Shown here: piece by piece, positions 2 to 22,239 of the stretch
How the letters are laid out: each line of letters opens with the position of its first letter
Numbering within the stretch: position 1 is the stretch's first letter
Source of the DNA: a virus
Direction: 5' to 3' (one strand)
Virus record (IMG/VR): IMGVR_UViG_3300042391_001875
Span: 1-23,222 of that record
DNA length: 23,222 nt
Notes under the pieces: generated by a model
Databases searched by the model: none
Seen by the model: the letters and a program-made list of their open reading frames with translations, nothing else
Told to the model about the DNA's origin: nothing
Position numbers and translations under genes: made by a program

Positions 2-337
2 ACCGACCAAGTTACGTATACATTGCGACTACAAGCACCCTACACGCTCAATGTAGGCCAACCATGGGATAAATTAAATAATAGCAATACGGTAGCAATT
101 ACTGGGCTAAGTAACGGTACCGCCTACTATATCTCAATTGATTCATATAATAATTTCTATCAACGCAGTGGAACATTTTCTACAGGAGGAGGAACTATAA
201 CTCCAGTAGCCCCACCATATTTCCCGCCGTTCTTTCCGCCGTTCTTCCCGCCGTTCTTCCCGCCGTTCTTTCCACCGTTCTTCCCACCGTATTTCCCTCC
301 ATTCTTCCCACCGTTCTTCCCGCCTAGATTTAAGTAG
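2..337 (+). CDS. Fibronectin-III-like phage structural protein with proline-rich C-terminal tail (5' end missing)
   Basis: The reading frame is open from the left edge, so the start lies outside the window; the internal TTG at 23 is not a convincing start. The first ~55 visible residues resemble the end of a fibronectin-III domain, with the typical late-strand pattern 'ITGLSNGTAYYISI'. A Gly/Thr linker follows, then ten tandem four-residue PP-[FYR]-F units, then Lys and the stop. The role is probably a virion surface or tail protein, because FN3 modules of this kind are common in phage tail proteins and another FN3 adhesin lies downstream. The Pro/Phe tail is unusual and is the closest proline-rich sequence to the oxygenase array that begins 8 bases after the stop. 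Full length and identity cannot be judged from this fragment. Confidence 0.7.
   Translation, partial: TDQVTYTLRLQAPYTLNVGQPWDKLNNSNTVAITGLSNGTAYYISIDSYNNFYQRSGTFSTGGGTITPVAPPYFPPFFPPFFPPFFPPFFPPFFPPYFPPFFPPFFPPRFK
212..331 (+). repeat. Ten 12-bp tandem units encoding PP-[FYR]-F
   Basis: The DNA unit is close to CCGCCGTTCTTC. The ten units encode, in order, PPYF, five PPFF, PPYF, two PPFF and PPRF. Synonymous changes between units (CCA/CCG, TTC/TTT) show that the peptide pattern is kept while the bases drift. Strict PP spacing makes it a plausible prolyl hydroxylase substrate, but this is inference. Confidence 0.9.
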
Positions 338-345
338 GTTTGAAT

Positions 346-963
346 TTGAACTCATTAGTTGAACCTGGACATTTTGGTTCAAAAAAAGATTCCATCGTTG
401 TTATTGGAAATTTTGTTGAACCAGAACATTTAAAAACTATACAAAAATTCTTACCGACAATCAATGAATGGGTAGACCCAGGCGAAAGTCAATATTCCGA
501 AGATGGAACATGCCTCTATAATGCCGACTATTGGCGCCATAGGCAATGTAGTGGGGAGATTATTCAAAAATTAAATAATGATATTTATAAAATTATTGAA
601 TTTTATATTAATAAAATGCAAAAAGTTTTAACAGAAACATTTTCGGTTCAACTATCAAGTAGGCCGCCAGTTCTTGTCAAATGGACACCAGGGACAGAAC
701 AACGACCACATGCCGATAAACAATTAAACGATGGCTCACCAAACCCGTTTCCTGATTATGATTTAAATTCGCTTATCTACTATAATGATGATTTTGAGGG
801 TGGCGAATTATATTATCCAGAACATGACATTGTAATAAAGCCGGAGCCAGGCCTAGCCGTCGCTCACCCAGGTGATATACATTTTCTACATGGTGTAAAA
901 CGTATTATTTCTGGCGAAAGATGGACTACACCATCTTTTTATACAGTGAAGGAAATTTTATGA
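346..963 (+). CDS. 2OG-Fe(II) oxygenase, prolyl-4-hydroxylase-like (short type, copy 1)
   Basis: The protein of ~205 aa has the double-stranded beta-helix core of 2-oxoglutarate/Fe(II) dioxygenases. The iron ligands are H122 and D124 ('RPHADKQ') and distal H182 ('HGVKRI'). R192 ('SGERW') should bind 2-oxoglutarate. The 'DDFEGGELYYPE' strand between the motifs is typical of P4H-like enzymes. The family uses 2OG and O2 to hydroxylate an unactivated C-H, often proline. I chose TTG at 346 because an AGTAGG sequence lies 7 bases upstream; TTG at 340 is possible. It sits directly after the proline-rich structural gene, and its stop overlaps the next start (ATGA). The substrate is unknown. Confidence 0.85.
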   Translation: MNSLVEPGHFGSKKDSIVVIGNFVEPEHLKTIQKFLPTINEWVDPGESQYSEDGTCLYNADYWRHRQCSGEIIQKLNNDIYKIIEFYINKMQKVLTETFSVQLSSRPPVLVKWTPGTEQRPHADKQLNDGSPNPFPDYDLNSLIYYNDDFEGGELYYPEHDIVIKPEPGLAVAHPGDIHFLHGVKRIISGERWTTPSFYTVKEIL

Positions 964-1526
964 GATTGTTAAAACACAAAAATTTTACAATTATTTTTGA
1001 TTTTTTGACAGAGCACGAGATTGCCGTGTTCTCACAATATTTTTCTAATGTTGAATGGGTGGAGTCACATGGTGATAGACATTTTTCAAACAACATTACG
1101 TCGCTTGATATTGGAGAAATCGCGCTCAAAGTACAGGGCCGATTAAAATCAGCAATAGAAAATATTTATTCATGTAGTCTGAGTGATGAAACTCTTGGTA
1201 CTTTTGTCAAATATCGACTTGGCCATGGACTACCTCTTCATTACGATTCAGTAACAGTAGACGAAATAACGGGGGAGGAAACAATACATAAAACATTTAG
1301 TGGGTGCGCTAAGTGCGACATAACATCAACACTTTATTTAAACAATAATTCTGTAGGTGGAGAAATACATTTTCCGAACTTGGACATCACCTACTATCCA
1401 CTGGAAGGTTCTGTAATTGTATTTCCGTCATCCAAGGAATACGAACACGAAGTATCTTCAGTGACGAGCGGCGACAGGATTATGACTACCACTTTTTGGC
1501 ATGTATTTGATGATGCGCAAAACTAA
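960..1526 (+). CDS. 2OG-Fe(II) oxygenase, prolyl-4-hydroxylase-like (short type, copy 2)
   Basis: This 188-aa protein has Fe(II) ligands H94 and D96 ('LPLHYD') and H163 ('YEHEV'), with 2OG-binding R173 ('SGDRIM'). The core strand is 'VGGEIHFPNLDI'. The start at 960 forms an ATGA overlap with the previous stop and has GAAGGA upstream, so translation is likely coupled; the longer frame from 921 lies inside the previous gene. It is colinear with the next copy, with ligand positions H94 and D96 in both, so the two look like a local duplication. Between the motifs it carries a short insertion with two Cys residues ('GCAKC'). Confidence 0.85.
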   Translation: MRLLKHKNFTIIFDFLTEHEIAVFSQYFSNVEWVESHGDRHFSNNITSLDIGEIALKVQGRLKSAIENIYSCSLSDETLGTFVKYRLGHGLPLHYDSVTVDEITGEETIHKTFSGCAKCDITSTLYLNNNSVGGEIHFPNLDITYYPLEGSVIVFPSSKEYEHEVSSVTSGDRIMTTTFWHVFDDAQN

Positions 1527-2085
1527 ATTTAAAAATATAACAATCATTAACAATTTGATTAGTCCACAGGATGTTGCTAAATTACGCACATATATTGATT
1601 CTTCTCCTCTTCAGGATGAAGAAAATAACCCTAATAAATTTATTAATGTACAAGATAATGAATGTAATACCATATTGTTAAATGCTCAACAATTACTTAA
1701 AAGCAATATTGAGAAAGATTTCAATACACCGGTAAGCGACGAAGGAATAGGTACAGTAGTAAAATTCTCTATAGGCTGGGAACTACCGTATCACTGCGAC
1801 CAATGGTCGAGCCTACCCACATACGGTGGCGCCCCAAAACGTGATATTAGTTCGATAATCTATTTGAGCGATGATTTTGAGGGTGGCGAATTGGTTTTTC
1901 CTGACTTGGATATATTCATACAGCCTGTGGCCGGGTCCGCTATCTATTTTACGGGTACCGAGGAATATATGCATCAAGTAACCCCATTACTTTCCGGAAC
2001 AAGATTGACTTGCACTGGTTTTTGGGGTAATCTTTCACTCTATGACAATGTTTCGATACCCCGAACCGCTACCGTTTCGTTTTGA
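1513..2085 (+). CDS. 2OG-Fe(II) oxygenase, prolyl-4-hydroxylase-like (short type, copy 3)
   Basis: This 190-aa protein has Fe(II) ligands H94 and D96 ('LPYHCD') and H154 ('YMHQV'), with 2OG-binding R164 ('SGTRLT'). The core strand 'DDFEGGELVFPDLDI' is nearly the same as in copy 1. In-frame ATGs occur at 1501, 1510 and 1513. I chose 1513 because the N-terminus then aligns residue for residue with copy 2. Its 5' end overlaps copy 2 by 14 bases and its 3' end overlaps the next gene by 44 bases. It is likely a cytoplasmic enzyme acting on a protein or small molecule; the sequence does not show which. Confidence 0.85.
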   Translation: MRKTKFKNITIINNLISPQDVAKLRTYIDSSPLQDEENNPNKFINVQDNECNTILLNAQQLLKSNIEKDFNTPVSDEGIGTVVKFSIGWELPYHCDQWSSLPTYGGAPKRDISSIIYLSDDFEGGELVFPDLDIFIQPVAGSAIYFTGTEEYMHQVTPLLSGTRLTCTGFWGNLSLYDNVSIPRTATVSF

Positions 2086-2809
2086 AAAACATTCAGTAGG
2101 TGCCCCAGAACTAGGGATACGCTTATATAAGGGTGTTTTGCCGCTCGCGGCAATGATTCCTGAGCGGCTCGAAAAAACTTTAGCAAGCAGCAGTCACCCT
2201 TATTTCCGTTGGCACGATTCACTCGTTGGAGAGGGAGTAAAGATGCCTGAATACAGGGATTGTGTTGATTTCAAATACGACAAGGAGTACGACGACAAAA
2301 CTCCACCTGAATTCAGGGACATAATTGATGTCTATTATACGGTTGCTAATGTTCAGAATGAATGTTTGCGTGATTATCAATCCGAGTACAACATTAATAT
2401 GACTTATATGGAGGCAATTAATTTTGTAAAATATACCGCTGGTCAACATTTTAATGTCCATACTGACCATGGTTTTTCTTATGTTTGTACCGTATCGTCG
2501 GTGATGTATCTCAATGATTCCTATGACGGCGGGGAGTTGTGGTTTCCAAAACTTGACATAAAAATTACGCCTGAATATGGGGATGTAGTATTTTTTCCTT
2601 CTACCTATATTTATGCACATGCTTCAATGCCTGTAACTTCGGGGGCGAAGTATTCCGCTGTGACGATGTATGACTACAACGACGATACGCATAAGTATGG
2701 TGGATTTACGCGCGATTTTGGGCAAACAAATAATCAACCATATGAACCATCAACTAGCAACAGTATAGTTCTTGGCCCGATTACCCCAATAGAGAGTACT
2801 TCTTTATGA
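2042..2809 (+). CDS. 2OG-Fe(II) oxygenase, prolyl-4-hydroxylase-like (short type, copy 4, divergent)
   Basis: This 255-aa protein is longer than the three before it, with extra sequence at both ends. Fe(II) ligands are H140 and D142 ('NVHTDH') and H193 ('YAHASM'). The core strand is 'DGGELWFPKLDI', followed by 'GDVVFFPS', a very typical P4H-like pattern. The residue expected to bind the 2OG C5-carboxylate is K203 ('SGAKYS') where the neighbours have Arg. Lys fills this role in some 2OG oxygenases (for example FIH), so activity is still possible. The start is ATG 2042, with ATG 2048 as an alternative. The stop overlaps the next start as ATGA. Confidence 0.8.
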   Translation: MTMFRYPEPLPFRFEKHSVGAPELGIRLYKGVLPLAAMIPERLEKTLASSSHPYFRWHDSLVGEGVKMPEYRDCVDFKYDKEYDDKTPPEFRDIIDVYYTVANVQNECLRDYQSEYNINMTYMEAINFVKYTAGQHFNVHTDHGFSYVCTVSSVMYLNDSYDGGELWFPKLDIKITPEYGDVVFFPSTYIYAHASMPVTSGAKYSAVTMYDYNDDTHKYGGFTRDFGQTNNQPYEPSTSNSIVLGPITPIESTSL

Positions 2810-3829: not shown

Positions 3830-3830
3830 A

Positions 3831-4460: not shown

Positions 4461-4480
4461 TAGAGGCAGTAGTCTTTTCA

Positions 4481-4510
4481 TTGTAACTAAATGATGGGAT
4501 AATATATAAT
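4481..4510 (+). promoter_or_regulatory. Candidate sigma70-type promoter
   Basis: TTGTAA at 4481-4486 and a perfect TATAAT at 4505-4510 are separated by 18 bases in the 65-base gap before the gene at 4526. This is one of the few non-overlapping gene junctions in the block, so a promoter restarting transcription here is reasonable. It is called by eye only. Confidence 0.4.
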
Positions 4511-4525
4511 GGTTGGAGGTGTCCT

Positions 4526-5374: not shown

Positions 5375-5377
5375 ATC

Positions 5378-5596: not shown

Positions 5597-5835
5597 TGAA
5601 AAAAATTAATTTTCATACAATTAAAAATGACGACCTTGAGAAACAACATGGGTGGGCTATCGTTTCTGCACCAGAAGGAGTATTGGGGGTGTCATCCTTT
5701 GATAATAATAATTTTTCTGAAGATGTTGTCAGATTTGATAGCGCGACCATGACATGGTCAAGAGGAGGGAACTCGGGTCATTACTGCAATAGTTTGAGTG
5801 AGTCTGAAGAAATTATGGATGATAATGACAACTAG
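5596..5835 (+). CDS. Small protein of unknown function, 79 aa
   Basis: The N-terminus is basic and the C-terminus is very acidic ('SESEEIMDDNDN'). The middle contains a short beta-like segment ('HGWAIVSAPEGVLGV') and 'TWSRGGNSGHYC'. No family is recognised. The TAATG junction with the upstream gene and overlap with the downstream start support it as a real gene. Confidence 0.55.
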   Translation: MKKINFHTIKNDDLEKQHGWAIVSAPEGVLGVSSFDNNNFSEDVVRFDSATMTWSRGGNSGHYCNSLSESEEIMDDNDN

Positions 5836-6124
5836 AATTGGCAATAAGAATAGTCGCGCATACGACGCAACGAGCAATATCGTTTATTTGGACACAATCA
5901 TTTTATCAATAATGTATACAGTTGGCATGAGTGAAGAGGAATTATACTCAGCCACAATTGATGAAATTATTTTTAACGTACGTAGCACTTTTGAATATAG
6001 AAAAAATACGCTGCCTACAGCAAGCCAAAATACTGTTCGCGGAATCAATATGTTGCTTGTATTGAATTTACGACGCGCCTGGTTCGATAGGCAGATTGCT
6101 CTAGAGGTTATGGCTCGTGGATAA
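5825..6124 (+). CDS. Small helical protein of unknown function, ~99 aa
   Basis: The likely start is ATG 5825, which overlaps the preceding gene by 11 bases; upstream ATGs at 5798 and 5819 are inside that gene. The sequence is predicted helical, with hydrophobic 'IVYLDTIILSIMYTVGM' that is not a clear membrane span and a basic C-terminus ('LRRAWFDRQIALEVMARG'). No motif is recognised. It overlaps the next GTG start. Confidence 0.5.
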   Translation: MTTRIGNKNSRAYDATSNIVYLDTIILSIMYTVGMSEEELYSATIDEIIFNVRSTFEYRKNTLPTASQNTVRGINMLLVLNLRRAWFDRQIALEVMARG

Positions 6125-6860
6125 AATACTTGGTAACAAATTTTTGCTTGCGTCTTTGATTTCAAGTGAATTGACAAGAGACCTGTCCGATGGTCTTGAA
6201 TACAACTACGACTCTGCTTATGACGACATTAATACATCTATCAAAGAATATTATAATTCTATGACCCTAGATAGGCGGGCAATTGCCATAGGCACAGATG
6301 GTGTGATGTTATCGCATGAAGTATTTGATAATCCTCAAATTGGCTGGAAGCAATCCCTATATTTATGTACTGATTATTTTGCTTTGATGATGGCAAATGT
6401 AAAAAGACCAAAGAATGCCTTAATTAATGGGCCAGACAAGCATTTTAATTTAGTTGCAACATTGGCTTCCATGGGTTGCAAATTAACTTTTCTAAATAAC
6501 AAATATTTAAATAATTTTGAATTGTTTGTGTTAAACAATCCAGAGTACCCATTTGACATTGAGTACGAAGTTATTGAACAAGAAGATATTTACGGATATT
6601 CTGGTCTGAAATTTGATTTTATGTTACTTGGTGCGGTCTATCTGGTATTGGACGATGAATTAATAAATTCTCATATAGAAGCACTTGATATAGGAGGAGT
6701 TATTCATCTCATAAATACTAATGATAACTCTGAAATCTATGGCGAAAACTATGCTCATTCTCCAAGTTACAAATTGTTTGAAGTTATAGATGATTATCCG
6801 AATATCACCACCTACCATATACCTTTTGGTATTGGTCATAACTTCATTATTAAAAACTGA
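6117..6860 (+). CDS. Possible Rossmann-fold methyltransferase-like protein
   Basis: The protein of 247 aa starts at GTG 6117, overlapping the previous stop by 8 bases. The central order of strands and helices ('NALINGPDKHFNLVATLASMG', 'CKLTFLNNKYL', 'FDFMLLGAVYL', 'DIGGVIHLINTND') resembles a class I SAM-dependent methyltransferase, but the glycine-rich motif I is poor, so it may be degenerate or something else with a Rossmann fold. An N-terminal helical segment of ~60 residues precedes it. It lies directly before the second oxygenase group. If it is a methyltransferase it could act on the same target as the oxygenases; that is speculation. Confidence 0.45.
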   Translation: MDKILGNKFLLASLISSELTRDLSDGLEYNYDSAYDDINTSIKEYYNSMTLDRRAIAIGTDGVMLSHEVFDNPQIGWKQSLYLCTDYFALMMANVKRPKNALINGPDKHFNLVATLASMGCKLTFLNNKYLNNFELFVLNNPEYPFDIEYEVIEQEDIYGYSGLKFDFMLLGAVYLVLDDELINSHIEALDIGGVIHLINTNDNSEIYGENYAHSPSYKLFEVIDDYPNITTYHIPFGIGHNFIIKN

Positions 6861-6872
6861 TATAGTAGCAAA

Positions 6873-7856
6873 ATGAAACCTCATCCAGATACACCTAATA
6901 TTGGCGATAACGAAATATTGGAAATATCAAATTATAAAATTGAGATTTTAGGTCCTGGAATAGTTGTTTTTAGAAATGTATTACAATTTGACCAAAGATT
7001 AGTATTTGACTATATCGATAGCAAGGCCGACGAGGCGCATAAAAATCGTTGGAATTATATAGTTGGCGAAGATGGTCAAACATATGGAATTAACGAAGAC
7101 GGTTTTCGTTATCTCCCAGAAGATATCCCTTCAACACCCGTAAGACTTTTGCGCCCGGTAGAAGAAGAAACTCCAGAAAATGTTGTTAATTTTTTTCATA
7201 ACATAGAAGAGACTATTTACAAATGTTTACTTCGTTATATCGATATTTACCCACTGCTTGTCGGTTGCGTTTGGTGGCGTAATCGCGGACATATTCTCCG
7301 ATACATCGATGAAGGCATTCTTGGTTCGCATTGTGACAATGATACTAACTATAAAGTAACCAACGGTGTTCGTTATATGCCGCGCGGTCAAGTCGCTGCT
7401 CGCCAAACTTGCGGAGCACTCGTGTATCTTAATGATTGCGTTGATGATGATTCGCAACTAGACGGCACTAATTTTGTTGGTGGCCACCTTAGGTTTTTCC
7501 ATCTTGGAATTGAATATAAACCACAAAAAGGCGACGTTATCATGTTCCCCACAAACTATATTGCATCTCATGATGTGACGCGAATGACTGCCGGAATCAG
7601 GTATACGTATTTGTCATTTTTTGGTCAAGGCTCACCTGACCATAACGTTCATATCAATATAGTTGAACCAGAAGATAGTTTTGATTGGTGTCCTGCAATG
7701 TGGATGAATCAAATTTATGATGACTATGAGCGTTATTGTAAATCTGAATTTTCTCTATATTCTCAGGACGAAGTTGAATTGGGCATTAACCCGGTATATC
7801 AGGGCCGTTGCGTTGCTCAATATAATACTACCCATGACACAGAAGTATTGAAATAG
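6873..7856 (+). CDS. 2OG-Fe(II) oxygenase (long type, copy 1)
   Basis: This 327-aa protein has Fe(II) ligands H153 and D155 ('GSHCDND') and H233 ('ASHDV'), with 2OG-binding R243 ('AGIRYTYLSFF'). The core strand is 'VGGHLRFFHLGIEY', then 'GDVIMFPTNYI'. It shares with the next three genes an N-terminal 'GPGIVVFRN' segment, 'YGINEDGFRY', a 'YPLLVGCVWWRNRGH' region before the HxD motif and an insertion between core strands. These four form a subfamily distinct from the shorter group at 346-2809. A C-terminal tail of ~70 residues is unique to this copy. Cytoplasmic; substrate unknown. Confidence 0.85.
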   Translation: MKPHPDTPNIGDNEILEISNYKIEILGPGIVVFRNVLQFDQRLVFDYIDSKADEAHKNRWNYIVGEDGQTYGINEDGFRYLPEDIPSTPVRLLRPVEEETPENVVNFFHNIEETIYKCLLRYIDIYPLLVGCVWWRNRGHILRYIDEGILGSHCDNDTNYKVTNGVRYMPRGQVAARQTCGALVYLNDCVDDDSQLDGTNFVGGHLRFFHLGIEYKPQKGDVIMFPTNYIASHDVTRMTAGIRYTYLSFFGQGSPDHNVHINIVEPEDSFDWCPAMWMNQIYDDYERYCKSEFSLYSQDEVELGINPVYQGRCVAQYNTTHDTEVLK

Positions 7857-7866
7857 GAATTTCGGA

Positions 7867-8700
7867 ATGAAAAATTTAGGAAATGGAATCATCTTGTTTC
7901 GTGATGCATTTTCTGTAGAAGATAAAATCATTCGATTTTTGAGTTCATTACGCGAAAGTGACATTCAGGACAATTATATCCATGAGTTTAATGAGGATGG
8001 GTCAATTAAATGTTTGGTCAATAAAAGTGGCCATAGATTTCTTCCGGACGATTTATCAAAAACATGCATTCGTATGGGTGACTATTATCAACATGCAAAT
8101 TCGAAGGACGCTATAGATTTTTTCAACTATTGCGACGAGGGTGTGTATCAGAAACTTTTAGAGTACGTTGAGGTATTCCCAATGTTATTGCCGTGCATCT
8201 GGTGGAAAACAAAGGGGCACCCCATACTCTATCCAAAGGGCTCAGAACAAGGGTTGCACTGCGATAATGACATAAACTATATGCCGGGATTTGAGCCAAA
8301 AATGCAATTAGGTTCTAGGCATGTACTTGCAGCGATGTGTTACCTAAATGATGATTTTACTGGTGGCGAGATTGTTTTTCCATATGCTGGAGTAGTTCAT
8401 GCGCCAAAAGTTGGTGACATTCTTTTATTCCCAGCAAACTATATTTGTGCTCATTATGTCGCTCAAGTTACCGATGGTGAAAGATATGCATATCTTCAAT
8501 ATTTTGGGAACGGGTCTTCTTCACCAGAATATGGGGTGTCGGTGTGTGATGACCTTGCAAATGTCCATAGTGGCCAGGTGTGGATGAATAACTTGTTTGC
8601 CGATTATCGCAAGTATATTGAATCAAAATATGATGTCAATAATTACGGAGACCTACTACTCCCGCTACAGCGAGAATTTCATAGTTCTAGGCTAGAGTAA
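7867..8700 (+). CDS. 2OG-Fe(II) oxygenase (long type, copy 2)
   Basis: This 277-aa paralogue of its neighbours has Fe(II) ligands H131 and D133 ('LHCDND') and H196 ('CAHYV'), with 2OG-binding R206 ('DGERYAYLQYF'). It has 'GNGIILFRDAF' at the N-terminus, 'IWWKTKGHPILY' before the iron motif, then 'TGGEIVFPYAGV' and 'GDILLFPANYI'. It begins 10 bases after the previous gene, with AGGAATTTCGGA in front of the ATG. The insertion between core strands is shorter than in the copies on either side. Substrate is unknown. Confidence 0.85.
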   Translation: MKNLGNGIILFRDAFSVEDKIIRFLSSLRESDIQDNYIHEFNEDGSIKCLVNKSGHRFLPDDLSKTCIRMGDYYQHANSKDAIDFFNYCDEGVYQKLLEYVEVFPMLLPCIWWKTKGHPILYPKGSEQGLHCDNDINYMPGFEPKMQLGSRHVLAAMCYLNDDFTGGEIVFPYAGVVHAPKVGDILLFPANYICAHYVAQVTDGERYAYLQYFGNGSSSPEYGVSVCDDLANVHSGQVWMNNLFADYRKYIESKYDVNNYGDLLLPLQREFHSSRLE

Positions 8701-8704
8701 TTGT

Positions 8705-9589
8705 ATGGAAATTTTGAATAATGATGTCAAAATAGAGCACCTTGGTGGCGGTGTTTGCATATTTAGGAATGCGTTTTCTACTGATTGGGCTGCCATATTT
8801 GAAACTGCCGTAGAACTAGTTGACCTAGAACATGCCGACATGTATCAACCAACTGTTCATCCAGAAACTAAGGAAATGGCATATATAAATAAAAGTGGCT
8901 ACCTCTTTGATAGTGAATCAATAGATGCAATGCCTCGCCGTGGTTCTGTAATTCATCGTGATTCTCGTCCACAAATTGCAAAAATGCTTCATGATATTGA
9001 AACTATAAAAGATTTGTATTTGTTGAAGTACTTTGAATATTTTCCACTTGCATATAATTGCGTTTGGTGGAAAGTCAAAGGACATCTTGTTTCCTACTCG
9101 CCAGGAGTTTATCTTGGACCCCACTCTGATATCAGTGCAGAATATGTGTATGGGGTGCATCAAACTTCACAAGAACTCGCCCTCCGTAATGTGATAACAT
9201 CGCTTGTATATTTCAATTCATCAATTAATGAAAATTCGTCAGATAATTGTGATTTTACTGGCGGAGAACACATATTCAATTATTTGGGGATAGAATATTC
9301 TCCACGTGCCGGTGATGTCATGATGTTCCCATCTAATTACATGGCCGCACATGAGGTACGTCCTGTCGTATCTGGTAGACGTATCTCCTATCTTGGTTGG
9401 TATTCGCAAGGAACGCCGAATCAAGAAGTCGGAGAAAGCGTATGTGACCCAAAAATAAATCCAGACGGCGCAAGAATCAGTACAAATGTCTATATGCCGA
9501 CGCTTCGCGATGACTATAGGGAGTTCCTGAAATCGCGGGGGTATGACGAATCGTCAGAACAATTTAATGCAACAAGACTGGTTGGTTGA
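8705..9589 (+). CDS. 2OG-Fe(II) oxygenase (long type, copy 3)
   Basis: This 294-aa protein has Fe(II) ligands H140 and D142 ('GPHSDI') and H216 ('AAHEV'), with 2OG-binding Arg at R225 or R226 ('SGRRISYL'). It has the subfamily segments 'GGGVCIFRNAF', 'CVWWKVKGHLVSY', 'TGGEHIFNYLGIEY' and 'GDVMMFPSNYM'. The gap from the previous gene is 4 bases. The stop overlaps the TTG start of the next gene (TTGA), which implies coupled translation. It differs most from the other long copies near residues 45-100, which may set substrate choice. Confidence 0.85.
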   Translation: MEILNNDVKIEHLGGGVCIFRNAFSTDWAAIFETAVELVDLEHADMYQPTVHPETKEMAYINKSGYLFDSESIDAMPRRGSVIHRDSRPQIAKMLHDIETIKDLYLLKYFEYFPLAYNCVWWKVKGHLVSYSPGVYLGPHSDISAEYVYGVHQTSQELALRNVITSLVYFNSSINENSSDNCDFTGGEHIFNYLGIEYSPRAGDVMMFPSNYMAAHEVRPVVSGRRISYLGWYSQGTPNQEVGESVCDPKINPDGARISTNVYMPTLRDDYREFLKSRGYDESSEQFNATRLVG

Positions 9590-10386
9590 GAGTGAAATCA
9601 ACGCATGTAGGAATGGGTGTCGTTGTCTGTGAGGACGTCATAGATGTGGACCAAGTATTTTTAAAAAAGTATGTAGCAGCATTGCGTAGTGCTAAAGAGA
9701 ATACTTTTACATATATTGAAGAAAACGGTATTGAATACGCCATCAATGCTACTGGTTTTAAATTTGATATTGCGGATATTGCCATCGCTCCCCAGAGATT
9801 TCTTAATACACGTTCATCTGAAGCACTAGGACAATTGGCAGATGAAGCAAATAAATTCATCGATAAATTAGAAAATGGAATATATGATGCACTAGTTGAA
9901 TATTGTCGTTATTTTCCTGATGCAGCAACGACGGCATGGTGGCGACCCTTGGGGCATCTAGCAGGATACGAAAATGGTCAAAAAATTGGTCCTCATTGCG
10001 ACGACCAAGTTCCTTTTGAATGGGGTCAGAAAACAGGAAATCAAGTATCAATGCATAATAGTACGAGCATAAACTTATATTTAAATGATTGCGTTGAATC
10101 AACTGAAGAACTTAATGAAACAAACTTCATAGGTGGAGAACTGTGCTTCCCTCATATCCCCTATAAATGGAAGCCTAAATCCGGTTCAGTCATTGCCTAT
10201 CCTTCAAATTATGTTGGAAGACATGAAGTTTTACCCGTAACCCATGGTCAGAGGTATGCCTATCTGAGCATGGCGTGTTATGGAACATCATTCACATCGG
10301 AAGAAATTGTCGGTCAACAAAATCCACATAGAATTTGGATGCCTGACCTTATTGAGAATTCACGTCATCATCTGACGGAATTATAG
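9586..10386 (+). CDS. 2OG-Fe(II) oxygenase (long type, copy 4)
   Basis: This 266-aa protein has Fe(II) ligands H137 and D139 ('GPHCDD') and H213 ('GRHEV'), with 2OG-binding R223 ('HGQRYAYL'). Subfamily segments are 'GMGVVVCEDV', 'AWWRPLGHLAGY', 'IGGELCFPHI' and 'GSVIAYPSNYV'. The start is TTG 9586 (TTGA overlap) or GTG 9592; the N-terminus is shorter than in its relatives. It is the last gene of the plus-strand oxygenase block and runs 38 bases into the end of the convergent glycosyltransferase gene. Substrate is unknown. Confidence 0.82.
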   Translation: MRVKSTHVGMGVVVCEDVIDVDQVFLKKYVAALRSAKENTFTYIEENGIEYAINATGFKFDIADIAIAPQRFLNTRSSEALGQLADEANKFIDKLENGIYDALVEYCRYFPDAATTAWWRPLGHLAGYENGQKIGPHCDDQVPFEWGQKTGNQVSMHNSTSINLYLNDCVESTEELNETNFIGGELCFPHIPYKWKPKSGSVIAYPSNYVGRHEVLPVTHGQRYAYLSMACYGTSFTSEEIVGQQNPHRIWMPDLIENSRHHLTEL

Positions 10387-11311
10387 GTTTTTCGGACCGA
10401 TAATCAAATCCTAAATTTTGAATATATATTTCATATGCTTCTTTTGTCGGAGCACCCCAATATCCAATAATATCTCCATCAAGTACTTGTTTAACTATTG
10501 TATTTACATCATAGATTTTATCATCAAAATTTACAAAAGGTTTTTGGTCCGTTAATGATTCAGTGAATATTTTCTTCCAGTCCGAGGCATTGCGGTTATC
10601 TGGCTCACTCTGCTTGCCAAGATGATAAAAGAAATTATCATCTATCGAAAAGATCCTCCAGCCTCTCGTGCAAGCCCTAAGCGCCAGAATGTGCTCTTCG
10701 CCGTAAAACGCTATACGTGGGTCGGGGAGTAGTTGGTTGAAAAACTCCATTCGCGAAAATACAAAGTGCCCGGAGGCTAGATAATGTTCAATATACCCAA
10801 CGCCCAATGTGCCAGCAGAGTTGCCCTGCATACCATATTCTTTTGAAGTTTCATCTATGGCTAATCGGTCACCATTGGTATCATGAAATATTATTACACC
10901 ATTAGCGTCTCGTTCAAACCATTTGGTTCTTTGGCTTATGGCGACGTCTCCATACATTGACTGAAGTTTTGAGTACTCCCTAAGGAGATTGACGTCCCAG
11001 TTTTTTTCAAATATTGTGTGGGCATCAATTTGAAGACAGTAGTCTTGATTTTCATGAAGCATTAGGGCATTTAGGCGGCCCAACCCTAGCCCTAGTGGAA
11101 ATTCATAACTTATGTTTACCTTTTTAACATTCCTATAATGAGATGTATCTGCAAATTTGCCATCTGTTCGCTGGTCTATTATGCCAAAATAAATGCGTGA
11201 AGGAAAACGTGCATTCTCGTACGCCGTATTTACCGTTAGGCCAATATCATCCTCATTGACACCGCAGGTGGATATATATATTGACCTTAAAAGTTTATTT
11301 ATTGCACTCAT
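10349..11311 (-). CDS. GT60-type glycosyltransferase (GlcNAc-transferase family, Skp1 Gnt1-like)
   Basis: This 320-aa protein resembles the GlcNAc-transferase family (PF11397, CAZy GT60). Visible marks are 'SIYISTCGVNEDD' at the N-terminus, 'ARFPSRIYFGIIDQ' near 35-47, the DxH metal/nucleotide motif D96-A-H98 in 'YCLQIDAHTIF', 'ASGHFVFSR', 'IAFYGEEHILALRACTRGW' and a late 'FFYHLGK'. The best-known member, Dictyostelium Gnt1, adds GlcNAc to a hydroxyproline of Skp1 after a P4H-type enzyme has made it. I chose ATG 11311, which has GGGTGA upstream; GTG 11323 is possible. It overlaps the end of the upstream oxygenase by 17 bases, so the two are probably made together. Donor and acceptor are unproven. 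Confidence 0.78.
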   Translation of the reverse strand: MSAINKLLRSIYISTCGVNEDDIGLTVNTAYENARFPSRIYFGIIDQRTDGKFADTSHYRNVKKVNISYEFPLGLGLGRLNALMLHENQDYCLQIDAHTIFEKNWDVNLLREYSKLQSMYGDVAISQRTKWFERDANGVIIFHDTNGDRLAIDETSKEYGMQGNSAGTLGVGYIEHYLASGHFVFSRMEFFNQLLPDPRIAFYGEEHILALRACTRGWRIFSIDDNFFYHLGKQSEPDNRNASDWKKIFTESLTDQKPFVNFDDKIYDVNTIVKQVLDGDIIGYWGAPTKEAYEIYIQNLGFDYRSEKPIIPSDDDVNSQ

Positions 11312-11987
11312 AAAAAAATTCACCCGTACTTAAGGCTAGTGGTGGGGAATCTTTGTGCCATACATTAATAACCATTACTTGACGTACCCCATTGGCCGCT
11401 GGAGTCGTTTCATGGGGACGCCTGCCAGCGTCGAAACAAATCAAGCGATTGGGTCGATAGGCGATTCTTTCCCTCTCTTCAGGAGATGATGTGAGATTTA
11501 TTACATTTTCTATTTCAAGAGCATTCTCGGGAGACCCCTCAATGCGTTTATTGTGTATTTCCAAAAAACCACCGTCAGAGCAATCCGTAAATCCGTACCA
11601 TATAGAACCAATGCACGGTGCATTAAATGTTTTATCGTGTGCATAAGAAAAAGTATCTGCGTCAACATGTATTTTTAGATGTTGTCCAGTCTTAAACGTT
11701 CTACACCAATATTCGAAGCCACATAACTCTGATGTTTGAAACGGCAGCAATCCAGGCGTTTTCCAAATTGCCTCAATGACTCGTTTCCGTGTTGTATTGG
11801 CCGGGCTGGACCACCACCCATCCCAGAACATGAAGGGGGAATAACATGCAGATGCCTCCGAATGAAAATAATTGGTCTCATGACCAAAATTTTCTATATC
11901 ACCCATATCTGGGGGAAAAAATTTAGTGTCATTCCTTATATCGTTTAGGAGATTTACATCATTAATGAAGTCATCAATTATTATCAT
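11295..11987 (-). CDS. 2OG-Fe(II) oxygenase, minus-strand copy
   Basis: This 230-aa oxygenase has Fe(II) ligands H107 and D109 ('LKIHVDAD') and H192 ('RRPHET'), with 2OG-binding R202 ('NGVRQVMVINVW'). The strand 'DGGFLEIHNKRI' corresponds to the GGEL strand of the others. It belongs to a different, more distant subfamily than the eight plus-strand copies, and a longer segment of ~45 residues separates the core strand from the distal His. I chose ATG 11987 because a small upstream ORF ends 14 bases inside it, a coupling arrangement; upstream in-frame starts lack a ribosome site. It is followed by the GT60-like gene, suggesting hydroxylation followed by glycosylation. Confidence 0.82.
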   Translation of the reverse strand: MIIIDDFINDVNLLNDIRNDTKFFPPDMGDIENFGHETNYFHSEASACYSPFMFWDGWWSSPANTTRKRVIEAIWKTPGLLPFQTSELCGFEYWCRTFKTGQHLKIHVDADTFSYAHDKTFNAPCIGSIWYGFTDCSDGGFLEIHNKRIEGSPENALEIENVINLTSSPEERERIAYRPNRLICFDAGRRPHETTPAANGVRQVMVINVWHKDSPPLALSTGEFFYECNK

Positions 11988-12150
11988 TCTGAGATTCTTC
12001 TTTCGGGGGTGGACCATAAACTGCATCAACGACGGACTGCAGTGGGACCAGCACAAGCCCTAGTGTTTTCTTTTCAAAATATTGATTTGAAGATTGTGCA
12101 TATGGGTCCGAGCAATAAATAACTTTAGTCATTTCAATCTGCTTTGGCAT
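11974..12150 (-). CDS. Small protein of unknown function, 58 aa, leading the minus-strand operon
   Basis: Read on the minus strand from ATG 12150, the frame gives 58 residues, starting MPKQIEMTKVIYCSDPY and ending with a PPP-containing acidic tail. AAAGGTGA precedes the start. Its stop lies 14 bases inside the oxygenase gene, the usual pattern of a coupled operon. No family is recognised and no membrane segment is visible. It could be a real small protein or a leader that couples translation. Confidence 0.5.
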   Translation of the reverse strand: MPKQIEMTKVIYCSDPYAQSSNQYFEKKTLGLVLVPLQSVVDAVYGPPPKEESQNDNN

Positions 12151-12202: not shown

Positions 12203-12358
12203 ATGTCAAATACACAAATTGAACTGACCAAAGTCATTGAAAGCCTTCTTTCACAAATGTCCCAACAGTTCTCTCAGCAAGCACAAAAAATTGCGATGCT
12301 TGAAGCGACTGTGGATGCCCTTTTGAAGAATGTGAATTCGGAGAAACCAACTGAATAA
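12203..12358 (+). CDS. Small coiled-coil protein, 51 aa
   Basis: ATG 12203 has a clear AAGGAGA ribosome site; the frame extends to 12170 but without one. Most of the protein forms one amphipathic helix with heptad-like spacing (Ile/Leu/Met in 'IESLLSQMSQQFSQQAQK' and 'IAMLEATVDALLKNV'), suggesting an oligomeric coiled coil. The stop overlaps the glycosyltransferase start as TAATG. It may be a small virion or chaperone-like component; no family is recognised. Confidence 0.6.
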   Translation: MSNTQIELTKVIESLLSQMSQQFSQQAQKIAMLEATVDALLKNVNSEKPTE

Positions 12359-13137
12359 TGATTTCCATCATTACGCCCACATATAACACTCCGCAGGACA
12401 TTCTTGCTCGTACTTGGGGTTCGTTGAGGTCTCAGACTTTTAAGGATTGGGAATGGGTTATTTGGGATGACTCTACGAATAATGAGACTTGGCGTCAGTT
12501 GTATGGATTCTGCTCTGATGAACGGTACAGGATTTCTATGCATCGCTCCCATGTTCATTCGGGGTCTATTGGAGATGTTAAGCGAAATGGCTTTATGGTT
12601 GCCAAGGGTGACATTTTGGTTGAACTTGACCATGACGACGAGTTGATGCCTGATGCACTCCAATTGATTTACGATGCGTTTAATGAGAATCCTGATGTAG
12701 GGTTCGTTTACTCTGATTGGTGTGAAATACTCCCAGACGGGCAGTCAGGGCGTTATCCAGACGGTTGGGCCTTTGGGTACGGCAGTGACTATTGGGACCA
12801 GGAGCACGGCGTTTGGACCATGCGTGCGCCAGAACTAAACACCACTACCATGCGCCATATTGTTTCAGCACCGAATCACGTTCGTGCTTGGCGAGCAGAC
12901 GTCTATCACGCCCTCAATGGGCATGACTGGAACCTCAAAGTGGCTGATGATTACGATTTGTGTGTCCGAACGTTCCTGGCGACTAAATGCTTACATATAC
13001 CGAAAATGATATACAAGCAGCACATATCCCCCAAGACTGCTCAACGACAACACAATCCTTTGATTCAAGAAAATGTCGGAATTATTGCTGAGAAGTACCG
13101 GACTTTTCTTGATAGCAAATTTGGTTTAGGTATCTGA
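12358..13137 (+). CDS. GT2-family glycosyltransferase
   Basis: This 259-aa GT-A fold transferase has the N-terminal nucleotide-binding pattern 'MISIITPTYNTPQDILARTW', 'WEWVIWDDST' near residues 31-40, and the metal-binding DxD-type 'LDHDDEL' at 91-95. A late 'VADDYDLCVRTF' segment is typical of the acceptor/catalytic region. GT2 enzymes transfer a sugar from a nucleotide sugar to a glycan, lipid or protein. It has no membrane segment. It is translationally coupled to the coiled-coil gene and followed by virion genes, so modification of a virion or host-surface component is plausible. Donor and acceptor cannot be read from sequence. Confidence 0.82.
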   Translation: MISIITPTYNTPQDILARTWGSLRSQTFKDWEWVIWDDSTNNETWRQLYGFCSDERYRISMHRSHVHSGSIGDVKRNGFMVAKGDILVELDHDDELMPDALQLIYDAFNENPDVGFVYSDWCEILPDGQSGRYPDGWAFGYGSDYWDQEHGVWTMRAPELNTTTMRHIVSAPNHVRAWRADVYHALNGHDWNLKVADDYDLCVRTFLATKCLHIPKMIYKQHISPKTAQRQHNPLIQENVGIIAEKYRTFLDSKFGLGI

Positions 13138-16237: not shown

Positions 16238-19189
16238 ATGCGAAAAAGGGGCGCCCGTAAAGGGCAATGGATATTTTGGGTTATCGCGTTTTTTGGTTGG
16301 TTTGCGCCTGCCGGAGTTATTGCTACGTCTGAAAACCTATTAGTAAATGGTGATTTTGCAGCCGATGGTGGTGGCTGGATTGGTGCGAGCGGGGGTGGTT
16401 CTTGTTCTGGTGGAGTGCCTAGTCTTGGTGTTTGGGGTGGTGAACCGCAACTGACATTTAGTTATATGCAGAATTCCGTATCTCAGCAAGTGACTGTTTC
16501 GTCTCCATCGGCACTAGAACTTTCTTTCCTTGCGAATGGGCCTAATGGTGGAACGTATAGCGCGACGATTTCTGACTCAGATGAGTCTGTAACAACTGGG
16601 GTGCTGACTGCAGGTGCAAATCAGGTTTCTAATCTAGGGATAACTACAACACAGAACGATGAAGTCGTCACAATCACGTTTGCTGGTAAGGATTCATTAT
16701 TTTGGGCTGGATGCTATGGGCCAGTAATTAGGAACGCATCGTTAACGGTGGTTACTCAGCCGACCTCGCTGGTTGTTACGAGTCTTTTGGATGATGGTTC
16801 CGTTGGAACGTTACGTTGGGCAATTATCCAAGCCAACGCTACTGCTGGTGGAATCTACGACGCCATTGACATCACCACAGAAGGAACCATTACTCTTACT
16901 TCCGACCTGCCTGCGATTACGGCTGGGGTAACAATCACCGGTACAGGAATGGTCACGACGATTATTGACGGAAACAACCTAAATCGGGCGATTTACAACA
17001 ATGGCTCAAGAACAATTGTTGTCCAGGACATGACATTCAAGCAAGGAAAAAACGTGTCGTGGAACGGTGGACTCATCTACAACAGCAACGGAACAATGAC
17101 ATTCAACCGAATAAAGATTTCCAATCATTCATCGTGGGCCTTCTATCAAGGAAATGGTGGAGTAACCACATTCAATGATTCTCAATTTACCAACAACGGT
17201 TACGCGATTACCTCTGACCACGGAGGCACCCCCTCTTCGCTGAGCCTTACAGACACTAATTACTCAAACCGCATCTACATCAATAACTCGGTATTCACAT
17301 CAAACACTTATGGTATTCGCACCGAGCGATTTACGAAGGTTGTAGACAGCCAATTTACAAACAATACCTATGGTGCATTGCTCGGTGGGCTGAATCGCCA
17401 ACAGGTAATCAACTCCACATTTACTAGCAATAATGTTGGCGTTTACTTGTCTTCTTGGATTCCAACATCGTGGACCCCGGGTGCTGGTAACCAAACTGTT
17501 TCAAACAACGCATTCAATGGGAATACGACTGCTATTCAGTTTGCAAACAACTGGAATAACGGCTCTTCGATGTACAACGGAGTAAGTGCAAACTCTTTCT
17601 CCACAGCCAGTGGGAATATATTTGGTACCACTGCGCTAAATACAAATAATTTCTCAGGCGCTGGGTATGTGGAGTCCAACAATACAACCACTGCGGCTTA
17701 CCTTAACCCAGTTACGAACTTGACGGCTGTTGCAAACGCAGACGGAAGTGTTGACCTTGATTGGGATGCGTCAGCGGCAAGCAATGCTGCCATCTACGGT
17801 TACTCGGTTAGTTTCTACGACCTTGACGAAATTGGTGGAACCACATCAGGAGGATGGGGGGTTTGGACCAATCAAGGAACCACCTATTCGTTAAGTACTG
17901 GAATGTTCTCTGGCAGCAATCCTGTCACGACTGGATACGGACCAGTTCGCTTTGGTATCAAAGCAGGAAATCAAAGTTGTTTCAACTCAGCAGGAGTGGG
18001 GCCGTGTGTCTATGGACCCGAAATAACCGTTGATGTAACCGTTATTGACCCAACCCCGCCCACTACAACCACAACAGAAGTTCCCACTACAACAACCGAG
18101 CCTCCAACTACTACGACAACAGAGGTGCCAGAAATAGAAGAACCAACAACAACTGAACTTCCAGTTACTTCGCCTCCTGATACGGAGCCAGAAGATACAA
18201 TAGTAACAACACCAGATACTACCGATGGAGGAACTGATGGAGGAACCGGAGATTCCGACGACACAACGTCACCCGAAACAACCGTACCTGAATCAGCCCC
18301 AGAAGAAGAAACGCCAGATACAACACCGGAATTACCGGTAGAAGAAGAAACACCAGAAGCGGTCGTTGACGACATTCTCGCAGGGGACCCGTCACCTGAA
18401 GAATTGACAGATGCTGTCAGTGACGCACTGTCCGCAACAGAGTCGGAAGAAGAACTGGTCGGTGTTGCTACTGAACTCCTGACGTCAGACCTTGACACAG
18501 AGCAATTTATTGCAGTCATTGATGAAGTTTTCAGTCAAGACTTATCCGATGAAGCACTTGCCGAACTCGTTACTACTGTATTCGCCGAAGATTTATCAGA
18601 TGAAGAAATCGCCGCTGTCGTGGACCAGGTATTTACCGCCGACATCAGCGATGAGGCGTTTGCTGAAGTTCTTGACACCATTTTTGAAGAGCCATTAAGC
18701 GACGAGGCTTTTGATTCTGTTATCGACGCCATTTTAGACGAGCCGATTTCGGATGAAGCGTTTGATGAGTTGGTTGATGTTTTGGGTGGCGACAGTGTTA
18801 GCGATGAGCAGGTCGTGGCTGCGGTTGACTCTATTATCGAAAATGGTCTTTCGGACGAGCAATCAATAAGTATTGCTACAAGTGGCGAGGTGTTGGAGTC
18901 AATTACGGGCGACCAGGCTACTGAAATTTTTGCCACCGTTCCAATTGGGGACATTTCGGATGCTGAGGCTGCTGCTCTTGTTGAAGCAGTACAGGACGCC
19001 CCCGTTGAGGTTAAGGAAGCATTTGAGGAAGAAATCAATATTTTTGCAGCAGGAAATGTAGACACGTACGTTCCTCTCGGCTCCAGTATTCCAGTAAGCA
19101 CCCGGCGTGTTCTGATTGCCGGAACCGCACTGACCCTCACAATGATTCCTATCCCCGTACAAATATCACCATCACGCATAGGTAAGTGA
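16238..19189 (+). CDS. Large exported surface protein: beta-helix, FN3, Thr-rich linker, acidic 17-residue repeats, C-terminal hydrophobic anchor
   Basis: This 983-aa protein has a Sec-type signal peptide (basic first 8 residues, hydrophobic 'WIFWVIAFFGWF', likely cleavage after AGVIA near 29). Residues ~30-170 look like a jelly-roll ('NLLVNGDF'). From ~178 a PMP-type entry ('SLLDDGSVGTLRWAIIQAN') leads into a right-handed parallel beta-helix with Asn-rich turns up to ~470. An FN3-like domain spans ~487-600, a Thr/Pro/Glu linker ~605-705, then ten acidic 17-residue repeats to ~885. It ends in 'STRR' plus a hydrophobic segment and a basic tail (955-983), which looks like a membrane anchor without LPxTG. 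This is the architecture of an actinobacterial cell-surface protein, not a virion tail spike, because it is exported. The role in infection is unknown. Confidence 0.75.
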   Translation: MRKRGARKGQWIFWVIAFFGWFAPAGVIATSENLLVNGDFAADGGGWIGASGGGSCSGGVPSLGVWGGEPQLTFSYMQNSVSQQVTVSSPSALELSFLANGPNGGTYSATISDSDESVTTGVLTAGANQVSNLGITTTQNDEVVTITFAGKDSLFWAGCYGPVIRNASLTVVTQPTSLVVTSLLDDGSVGTLRWAIIQANATAGGIYDAIDITTEGTITLTSDLPAITAGVTITGTGMVTTIIDGNNLNRAIYNNGSRTIVVQDMTFKQGKNVSWNGGLIYNSNGTMTFNRIKISNHSSWAFYQGNGGVTTFNDSQFTNNGYAITSDHGGTPSSLSLTDTNYSNRIYINNSVFTSNTYGIRTERFTKVVDSQFTNNTYGALLGGLNRQQVINSTFTSNNVGVYLSSWIPTSWTPGAGNQTVSNNAFNGNTTAIQFANNWNNGSSMYNGVSANSFSTASGNIFGTTALNTNNFSGAGYVESNNTTTAAYLNPVTNLTAVANADGSVDLDWDASAASNAAIYGYSVSFYDLDEIGGTTSGGWGVWTNQGTTYSLSTGMFSGSNPVTTGYGPVRFGIKAGNQSCFNSAGVGPCVYGPEITVDVTVIDPTPPTTTTTEVPTTTTEPPTTTTTEVPEIEEPTTTELPVTSPPDTEPEDTIVTTPDTTDGGTDGGTGDSDDTTSPETTVPESAPEEETPDTTPELPVEEETPEAVVDDILAGDPSPEELTDAVSDALSATESEEELVGVATELLTSDLDTEQFIAVIDEVFSQDLSDEALAELVTTVFAEDLSDEEIAAVVDQVFTADISDEAFAEVLDTIFEEPLSDEAFDSVIDAILDEPISDEAFDELVDVLGGDSVSDEQVVAAVDSIIENGLSDEQSISIATSGEVLESITGDQATEIFATVPIGDISDAEAAALVEAVQDAPVEVKEAFEEEINIFAAGNVDTYVPLGSSIPVSTRRVLIAGTALTLTMIPIPVQISPSRIGK
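18050..18359 (+). repeat. Thr/Pro/Glu-rich low-complexity linker
   Basis: Runs of TTTTTEVP and TTTTEPP units, then Asp/Glu/Thr/Pro-rich sequence, link the FN3-like domain to the acidic repeats of the beta-helix protein. Such linkers are extended and often O-glycosylated in exported bacterial proteins. A long open frame on the other strand here is a by-product of this composition. Confidence 0.8.
18386..18844 (+). repeat. Nine tandem 17-residue (51-bp) acidic helical repeats
   Basis: The units begin at 51-base steps with no gaps; the clearest are DLSDEALAELVTTVFAE, DLSDEEIAAVVDQVFTA and DISDEAFAEVLDTIFEE. The consensus is (D/P)-(L/I)-S-D-E-x-(F/L/I) followed by an amphipathic helix. A tenth, degenerate unit follows. 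The DNA of the units has diverged strongly, so the array is old and kept by selection on protein. Confidence 0.85.
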
Positions 19190-20934: not shown

Positions 20935-22239
20935 TTGAAAATTAGACCTGCATTTAAAAAATCTTTGATGGTTGCTGTCTGCGCTGCTACGGGGATATTC
21001 GCTTTATTTAGTAGTGCCCCATTTGTTGCATCTGCTGATGTTATTTCTAGTACCGATTTTGAAACCGGAACATTAAATGGGTGGAACAAAAGCCCAGTAT
21101 CTGGCACTAGTGCACTCACAACCATCACGCAAGAAGGTTCTGGTGTCAATATTGCGACTGGAAGCATTTCATTCAGCGCACCTTCACATAACGCCGTTGG
21201 TAGTCCGACCCTAGGCAATGGTCAACCCAACCCGTATTATGCGCCGGCAGTCACCCCGACTACTTGGACATTCTCTCCATATGGCACGTATGCAGCATCA
21301 TTGCAGCCGAGCGGTTCTCCCACATTCGATAATGCCACTAGCGCATTGGGTCTCACCCCAACTCAAAATACTGCAATCAAGACACTTCTAACCCAGCAGA
21401 AGCAGGCGTCAGGTTTGGGTGATTCCAACCCAACAAATGCGGCATGGATAACTAAAGAAGTTACATTAAGTGCAGGCGCAACCTACACAATGTCATGGAA
21501 CTATATTGGAACAGATTACGTTCCGTTCAATGATGGTTCTATTACATCGCTTGTTTACACTGGAACTGGAACAGCACCACAAATCACTGTGAATAATGGC
21601 GTGGGCAACTATGCTCTGCTCGGATTTACCAACCCTGGAACTGGCGACTACTCCACCGGAACATATGGCTCAACCGGCTGGCAAGTATCCACCTATCAGG
21701 TTTCGACTACAGGAACATATCTACTTGGTTTTGCAGTTTTTAATCTTGGTGATACCGGACTCTCGCCTGTCTTACTAGTTGACAGCCAGCCAGGCAACAC
21801 TGTAAAAAATGGTGCACCATTTGGTGCTGTTGTCCCCAATAACCCGAATGCGCCTGTAGCCCCATCCACAACAACAGAGGCCCCCGCAACTACGACAACT
21901 ACGACGACTACGACCACCACAACAGTCGCGCCTACAACGACTACGGAAGCCCCAGCAACTACCACCACTACAGAAACGCCCGCTACTACTTCAGCCCCCA
22001 CTACAACTACGGTGGCTCCTGCGACAACCACCACAATGGCACCCACAACTACTTCGGAAGCCCCCGTGACAACTACAGAGGCCCCTGCGGTGACAACAGA
22101 GGCACCCACGACAACAGTTCCAACTCAAGTCACCACCCTCCCAATTACGGGCTCGGATACAGACAATTCAGGTCTTATCGCATTTGGCATTCTCGCTTCT
22201 GGTTTTGCCATCTATTTATTCGCTAAAAAAAATAAATAA
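20935..22239 (+). CDS. Sortase-anchored (LPxTG) surface protein, 434 aa
   Basis: The start is TTG 20935, with AAAGGGG upstream. A Sec signal peptide is clear ('MKIRPAFKKSLMVAVC...', cleavage near 'FVASA-D'). The mature N-terminal ~270 residues are beta-rich, beginning 'STDFETGTLNGW', which is typical of jelly-roll carbohydrate-binding-like domains. A Thr/Ala/Pro/Glu linker of ~90 residues follows. The C-terminus is a full cell-wall sorting signal: L402-P-I-T-G406, a hydrophobic span and a KKNK tail. It should be exported and attached to peptidoglycan by a host sortase. Phage genes for wall-anchored proteins are uncommon; it could alter adhesion or block superinfection. It lies inside the lysis region. 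Confidence 0.8.
   Translation: MKIRPAFKKSLMVAVCAATGIFALFSSAPFVASADVISSTDFETGTLNGWNKSPVSGTSALTTITQEGSGVNIATGSISFSAPSHNAVGSPTLGNGQPNPYYAPAVTPTTWTFSPYGTYAASLQPSGSPTFDNATSALGLTPTQNTAIKTLLTQQKQASGLGDSNPTNAAWITKEVTLSAGATYTMSWNYIGTDYVPFNDGSITSLVYTGTGTAPQITVNNGVGNYALLGFTNPGTGDYSTGTYGSTGWQVSTYQVSTTGTYLLGFAVFNLGDTGLSPVLLVDSQPGNTVKNGAPFGAVVPNNPNAPVAPSTTTEAPATTTTTTTTTTTTVAPTTTTEAPATTTTTETPATTSAPTTTTVAPATTTTMAPTTTSEAPVTTTEAPAVTTEAPTTTVPTQVTTLPITGSDTDNSGLIAFGILASGFAIYLFAKKNK
21868..22137 (+). repeat. Thr/Ala/Pro/Glu low-complexity linker
   Basis: TTTEAPATTT-like units, including a stretch of twelve Thr codons, form the wall-spanning stalk of the LPxTG protein. Codons for Thr vary (ACA, ACT, ACG, ACC), so the stretch is kept as protein rather than a recent DNA expansion. 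Confidence 0.8.
22138..22239 (+). other. LPxTG cell-wall sorting signal
   Basis: LPITG is encoded at 22138-22152, then a short acidic spacer, a hydrophobic helix of about 18 residues and a KKNK tail before the stop. This matches the three-part sorting signal recognised by class A or E-type sortases. No sortase gene is in the window. Confidence 0.85.

Follow-up and report, generated by a model that had tools for sequence, protein, structure and literature searches.

A phage genome recovered from environmental DNA encodes, on overlapping genes of one strand, a 2OG-Fe(II) oxygenase and a GT60-like glycosyltransferase. Both enzyme families are identifiable, the two genes are conserved as a pair in related phages, and the pairing or fusion of 2OG oxygenases with GT60 enzymes recurs elsewhere. 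On the basis of family identity and genomic association, the pair can tentatively be read as a cassette for sequential prolyl hydroxylation and glycosylation. The chemistry of hydroxylating a proline and then attaching a sugar to it is known from amoebae and plants.

The window, by which is meant the whole stretch of DNA analysed, is a complete virus record of 23,222 bases from a phage known solely from environmental DNA. The first ORF encodes a tail-protein end of the (PP[FY]F)n type; an oxygenase region follows, and then structural, Thr-rich, and lysis genes (Table 1). Nine 2OG oxygenases are encoded in total, one of them in the GT60 pair, which sits inside the oxygenase-rich region on the opposite (minus) strand. 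The eight further oxygenases (340-10386) are kept in relatives, as are the DUF6065 and glutathione peroxidase genes.

Table 1. Features of the 23,222-base window discussed in the text.
Feature	Position	Strand	Details
Tail-protein C-terminus	2..337	+	weak fn3, E 0.015, below cut-off
2OG oxygenase	340..963	+	PF13640 25.6 bits; class often nearest to PPFF tracts
2OG oxygenase	921..1526	+	PF13640 39.7 bits
2OG oxygenase	1501..2085	+	PF13640 43.4 bits; PHROG 61
2OG oxygenase	2042..2809	+	PF13640 49.6 bits; class most often nearest to PPFF tracts
DUF6065 gene	2806-3531		between oxygenase genes
Glutathione peroxidase gene	3834-4460		between oxygenase genes
Four tandem 2OG oxygenases	6873-7856, 7867-8700, 8705-9589, 9586-10386	+	PF13640 32-44 bits each
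GT60-like glycosyltransferase	10349..11311	-	PF11397; 320 aa from ATG
Gene overlap (ATG reading)	11295..11311	-	17 bases
2OG-Fe(II) oxygenase of the pair	11295..11987	-	PHD-like, 230 aa, ATG start
58-aa ORF	11974..12150	-	mechanical ORF, no family; overlaps oxygenase start
GT2 glycosyltransferase	12358..13137	+	PF00535 68.1 bits; adjoins pair, opposite strand
983-aa protein	16238..19189	+	Thr/Pro-rich tract
Thr-rich protein	20935..22239	+	Gram_pos_anchor domain, PF00746 27.2 bits

The oxygenase and transferase of the pair

The sequence-only reading described an oxygenase and a GT60-like transferase sharing 17 bases on the same strand, and this arrangement is confirmed when the transferase is read from its ATG; an alternative GTG start at 11323 would lengthen the protein to 324 aa and the overlap to 29 bases. 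The pair is kept in the same arrangement in four related contigs, across which the transferase is 62% and the oxygenase 73% identical, with an overlap there of 8 bases (L002). Substitutions are mostly synonymous in both genes (pN/pS 0.24/0.72 and 0.17/0.74), and both bear the signature of purifying selection. Because the overlap is kept in four contigs and the changes are mostly synonymous, the arrangement of the pair is not due to chance. Further island genes in the same contigs encode another 2OG oxygenase, a GT4, and a probable methyltransferase. Comparison of the window with L002 gives a pS of 0.72-0.74 in the island (10349-12150) versus 0.32 in the flanking oxygenase (9586-10386), and the island thus has a history separate from that of its flank, which suggests that the inverted island either is an exchanged cassette or evolved separately. 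The short ORF just upstream of the oxygenase on the minus strand is possibly the first gene of the pair's transcript.

Relatives of either protein in cultured phages were not found by tblastn, and single-sequence phmmer of both against the PDB returned nothing useful, so that profiles and folds were needed for their assignment. The transferase matches PF11397 alone, at 67.8 bits versus a cut-off of 21, which upholds its proposed GT60 membership at the Pfam level. The expected DxH site is present as D96-A97-H98, with D and H invariant, alongside the motifs EHYL-x-SG, PDPR-x2-FYGEE, and RGW. The structure model (pLDDT 76) has the fold of polypeptide HexNAc transferases, and its best Foldseek match in the PDB is GalNAc-T2 (E 5e-10). 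By profile and model, the protein is assigned to PF11397/GT60, with a GT-A fold and a DxH-type metal site, and is predicted to be a polypeptide HexNAc transferase. A GT60 profile matched none of the PDB sequences, so that a sequence search revealed no solved GT60. BFVD contains phage GT60 proteins with up to 31% identity and a TM of 0.80 to the window transferase.

GT60 holds both Hyp-specific and Ser/Thr-specific enzymes (PMC6939170, PMC8724618), and one member, Gnt1, is reported to act only on an acceptor whose proline has already been hydroxylated (PMC6939170). The top PDB folds for the transferase model are Ser/Thr polypeptide GalNAc-transferases. This similarity, and the presence in GT60 of Ser/Thr polypeptide alpha-GlcNAc transferases (PMC6939170, PMC8724618), would suit enzymes that act separately within a shared virion-modification island, the oxygenases on PPFF or other tail proteins and the GT60 enzyme, in T. 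cruzi GT60-like fashion, adding alpha-GlcNAc to Ser/Thr of Thr-rich proteins. The window offers alternative Ser/Thr acceptors in its two Thr-rich proteins (16238-19189 and 20935-22239), the second of which has 37 S+T within 60 residues; the oxygenase family, moreover, occurs mostly without GT60. Separate action, the main alternative, is nevertheless considered rather unlikely, as the direct overlap of the two genes is kept in relatives and bacterial gene associations, described below, point to Hyp acceptors.

The oxygenase scores 26.8 bits against PF13640, just below the curated gathering cut-off of 27, and its placement in the 2OG superfamily, likewise sustained, is drawn not from this single-sequence score but from a 46-member alignment, a model with a pLDDT of 88, and profile and fold matches. 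In the alignment, H107, D109, and H192 are invariant and R202 is present in at least 90% of members; alignment and model together describe an H107-x-D109...H192...R202 site on a double-stranded beta-helix 2OG-Fe(II) fold. The top matches by Foldseek and profile are EGLN1/PHD2, PiuC, and Dictyostelium PhyA (6t8m), and EGLN1/2, PiuC, PhyA 6t8m, and P3H1 are among the 41 matches of the profile to the PDB (E 4e-5 to 0.07). Similarity to PHD2/EGLN, PiuC, and PhyA 6t8m is modest (TM about 0.5, E 4e-5 to 3e-4). These comparisons place the oxygenase with the PHD/PhyA branch, and most of the solved structures nearest to it are prolyl hydroxylases.

Fold matches of the oxygenase also include small-molecule enzymes, e.g. 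WelO5, and the island holds a GT2 here and a GT4 and methyltransferase in relatives, as might be expected if both enzymes modified small molecules or a host surface glycan in place of protein. Such a role is improbable, given that the GT60 fold and family are those of polypeptide transferases and that the fusion partners found in bacteria are of protein-modifying types. Oxygenase-glycosyltransferase pairs also serve DNA hypermodification in phages, in which case a TET/JBP-like oxygenase would hydroxylate a base for the transferase to glycosylate. The paralogue at 7867-8700 matches Tet_JBP only at E 0.016, but the pair oxygenase has no Tet_JBP (PF12851) match at E<=1, nor is any TET structure among its listed fold or profile matches; DNA hypermodification is hence very improbable and was rejected.

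The oxygenase family is present in 76 viral loci. A PF11397 gene occurs in 3 of 50 contigs that carry it, with the closest four excluded and the contigs often being fragments, which speaks against a family dedicated to GT60 and always found with it. The pairing is therefore optional, and the oxygenase has a role without GT60. Of 51 distinct cases of remote members, from marine phages, 20 have a different glycosyltransferase no more than three genes away, the partners being GT2, a GT25-2OG fusion (PF01755 + OGFOD2-like), GT4, and a PLOD-type GT; the family thus tends to accompany glycosyltransferases, of which GT60 is one of several.

The GT25-2OG fusions that adjoin remote members are similar to those of the PLOD/mimivirus type. 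PLOD/LH3 and the mimivirus lysyl hydroxylase-glycosyltransferases share the logic of hydroxylating and then glycosylating, but with a different GT family and probably a different residue. In a scheme of this kind, hydroxylation by the window oxygenase would fall on lysine or some other residue, which the transferase would then glycosylate, in keeping with the GT25-OGFOD2-like fusions and PLOD-type GT beside remote members in marine phages and with a cyanobacterial GT60-2OG fusion that matches both PiuC and LH3. That the closest solved relatives of the oxygenase are mostly prolyl hydroxylases, and that Hyp and Ser/Thr are the acceptors known for GT60 (PMC6939170, PMC8724618), makes it a poor prospect relative to prolyl hydroxylation followed by glycosylation. 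Among the marine phages, PLOD-reminiscent GT25 + OGFOD2-like/2OG fusions (L048:4569-5999, L065:4506-5996, L067:4566-5990) stand directly before a member of the window-type oxygenase family, and a gene encoding a GT domain of PLOD type (PF25342; L075:6594-7400) stands directly after another.

Pairing of 2OG oxygenases with GT60 in bacteria

The two-step idea is best supported by gene pairing and domain fusion in bacterial genomes. A GTDB scan with a wide GT60 alignment as the query recovered 116 GT60 relatives, and the best 80 were kept. Among these best 80 of 116, 2OG oxygenases make up 24 of the 128 immediate neighbors of GT60, versus 2 of 424 other genes at the same loci. The pairing is seen in SAR86, Saprospiraceae, and Cyanobacteria, and the GT60 tree, several rows of which are long branches, needs seven changes of the 2OG-adjacency trait, at least five of them on well-supported branches. 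The adjacency set consists mostly of SAR86-type genomes in which the pair is divergent and about 47 bases apart, and most bacterial GT60 genes in the best 80 of 116, including most cyanobacterial and many proteobacterial ones, have no 2OG neighbor. Divergent P4H/GT60 pairs are found at L384:4331-5981 and at about 22 similar SAR86-type loci.

The SAR86 neighbor matches, by phmmer against the PDB, Bacillus-type P4H (2.4e-34), algal P4H (about 1e-30), and human P4H alpha-2 (5e-30), and on homology is taken to be a true prolyl 4-hydroxylase. In a gammaproteobacterial MAG, a single 1184-aa protein (L505:4593-8147, minus strand) comprises HPAT-like, GT60, and P4H domains, the first of which matches the hydroxyproline O-arabinosyltransferase family PF23452 at 43.7 bits versus a cut-off of 23.9. 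A further C-terminal stretch of this protein resembles a second 2OG domain, judged by eye. A cyanobacterial protein (L520:2409-4664, minus strand) fuses GT60, AhpC-TSA, and 2OG domains, and in a second cyanobacterium, a 2OG gene adjoins the GT60 gene. In a betaproteobacterial locus (L406:1-3691), a GT60 gene has on one side a gene for a PTPEP-repeat protein and on the other, two genes away, a P4H-like 2OG gene.

In the SAR86, gammaproteobacterial (L505), and cyanobacterial (L519/L520) cases, as in the phage, GT60 thus adjoins a 2OG oxygenase or is fused to one. The SAR86 and L505 oxygenases, however, are collagen-type P4Hs, whereas the phage enzyme is PHD-like, and the bacterial fusions carry extra domains (HPAT-like, AhpC-TSA). 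P4H adjacency and the P4H-GT60-HPAT-like fusion point to Hyp acceptors within the GT60 family, and this argues against independent action of the phage enzymes on different proteins. The two-step Hyp pathway put forward in the sequence-only reading accordingly stands in part: bacterial P4H-GT60 pairs and fusion, along with PHD/PhyA kinship, speak for it, but the prevalence of the oxygenase family without GT60, the inclusion of Ser/Thr enzymes in GT60, and the Thr-rich proteins of this phage count against it. Its label, Skp1-type, fits only as a description of the chemistry and implies neither Skp1 itself nor the later transferases of the Skp1 pathway.

The PPFF tail tract as a candidate acceptor

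At the window's left edge, the tail protein terminates in (PP[FY]F)9-PPRFK (tract 212-337), ahead of the eight further oxygenases. Its units differ at third codon positions, with no change in either P or in the final F, indicating that the peptide is what is kept. Repeats of the (PP[FY]F)n type (L108-L227) are common in viral contigs, often closing a tail protein with PPxFK and lying in 2OG-rich regions. A degenerate search for PPFF recovered at least 120 viral loci. Among the matches listed, 39 of 42 PPFF contigs of at least 20 kb carry PF13640, usually in 5-11 genes, compared with 3 of 37 random contigs (Fisher 2e-15). An oxygenase is present in the fetched DNA of 87 of 120 listed loci versus 3 of 120 controls, and the nearest one lies at a median of 614 bases from the tract among the matches listed.

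The PPFF phages are mostly one related group, with 103 of the 121 listed loci joining at 50% protein identity, and no decay of the PPFF-2OG association with distance is seen within 10 kb, 2OG density being flat inside the cluster. The link is, therefore, regional and partly one of lineage. PPFF is present in all six checked relatives of the window clade that carry the pair-type oxygenase, and in the contigs of near GT60 relatives, one 13-kb fragment excepted. It is absent from the remote viral GT60 contigs L357-L362 and from all 24 remote contigs with the pair-type oxygenase family; PPFF need not, then, be the pair oxygenase's own substrate. A role for this oxygenase as the dedicated PPFF enzyme was dropped, since the classes of 2042 and 340 are nearest to the tracts and remote members lack PPFF.

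PF11397 is not clearly enriched at PPFF loci (5 of 120 versus 0 of 120, P 0.06, among the matches listed; 2 of 42 contigs). PPFF, 2OG, and GT60 genes do occur within a few genes of one another in phages with very different GT60s (L169, L181, L205, L217). In two of these, L181 and L205, the sequence around the tract within the PPFF protein is rich in Thr, as it might be if GT60 acted separately on Ser/Thr.

In the sequential reading, the hydroxylated residue, acceptor protein, sugar, step order, and adsorption effect are all elements that we infer. A virion protein would first be hydroxylated on a side chain, most likely that of proline, by the PHD-like oxygenase; the resulting hydroxyl would then receive from the GT60 enzyme an alpha-linked HexNAc, probably GlcNAc. 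The foremost candidate acceptor, and candidate substrate for prolyl hydroxylation, is the (PP[FY]F)n terminus of the tail protein, and the neighboring oxygenase classes of 340-963 and 2042-2809 may also hydroxylate PPFF prolines. The modification would perhaps alter tail surface properties or adsorption. A broader and more doubtful proposal is that a large aquatic phage group builds Hyp-rich (PPFF)n tail ends by means of clustered, dedicated prolyl hydroxylases and that some of its members, including this phage, cap Hyp with GT60 sugars, in a prokaryotic counterpart of the Hyp-glycosylation of plant extensin or Skp1; bacteria, SAR86 among them, would have related P4H-GT60 machinery.

Relation to known hydroxylation and glycosylation systems

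The Skp1 pathway of Dictyostelium and Toxoplasma, which employs the PHD-type P4H PhyA and the CAZy GT60 enzyme Gnt1, uses the same two enzyme families, including a GT60 of DxH type, and its Dictyostelium PhyA (6t8m) is matched by the phage oxygenase in both profile and model. The phage enzymes differ in being encoded by overlapping genes and in having no Skp1. Among viruses, the chlorovirus PBCV-1 encodes a prolyl 4-hydroxylase (Eriksson 1999, as cited in PMC9301287). Its prolyl hydroxylase is likewise virus-encoded, but PBCV-1 infects eukaryotic algae and the present virus is a phage. To our knowledge, no GT60 is coupled to the PBCV-1 enzyme. Phage proteins of the same family as the window transferase appear in BFVD ("Glycosyltransferase, GlcNAc", uncultured Caudovirales phage), where they are listed as predictions with neither pathway nor substrate. 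The enzyme families are thus known, and phage GT60 genes have already been predicted and named; no description of a phage or bacterial P4H-GT60 pairing, or of PPFF tracts, was found in the open-access literature.

A survey of the Baltic Sea places prolyl 4-hydroxylase among the most abundant viral auxiliary genes of the water column and notes that its viral use "remains cryptic" (PMC9301287). The window, with its proline-rich tail tract, oxygenase cluster, and GT60, offers a concrete, testable answer. Phages and bacteria may, then, use the chemistry of proline hydroxylation followed by sugar attachment. If true, Hyp-linked glycosylation would extend to phages and, given the SAR86 P4H-GT60 pairs and the fusion of HPAT-like, GT60, and P4H domains, also to free-living bacteria, with implications for how the eukaryotic Hyp-glycosylation pathways arose. 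PPFF was not found near the oxygenases of the cultured phages Melnitz-3 and S-SCSM1 in the stretches covered; the latter, a Synechococcus phage (L528), has seven annotated 2OG oxygenases around its tail fiber genes and is a possible laboratory system.
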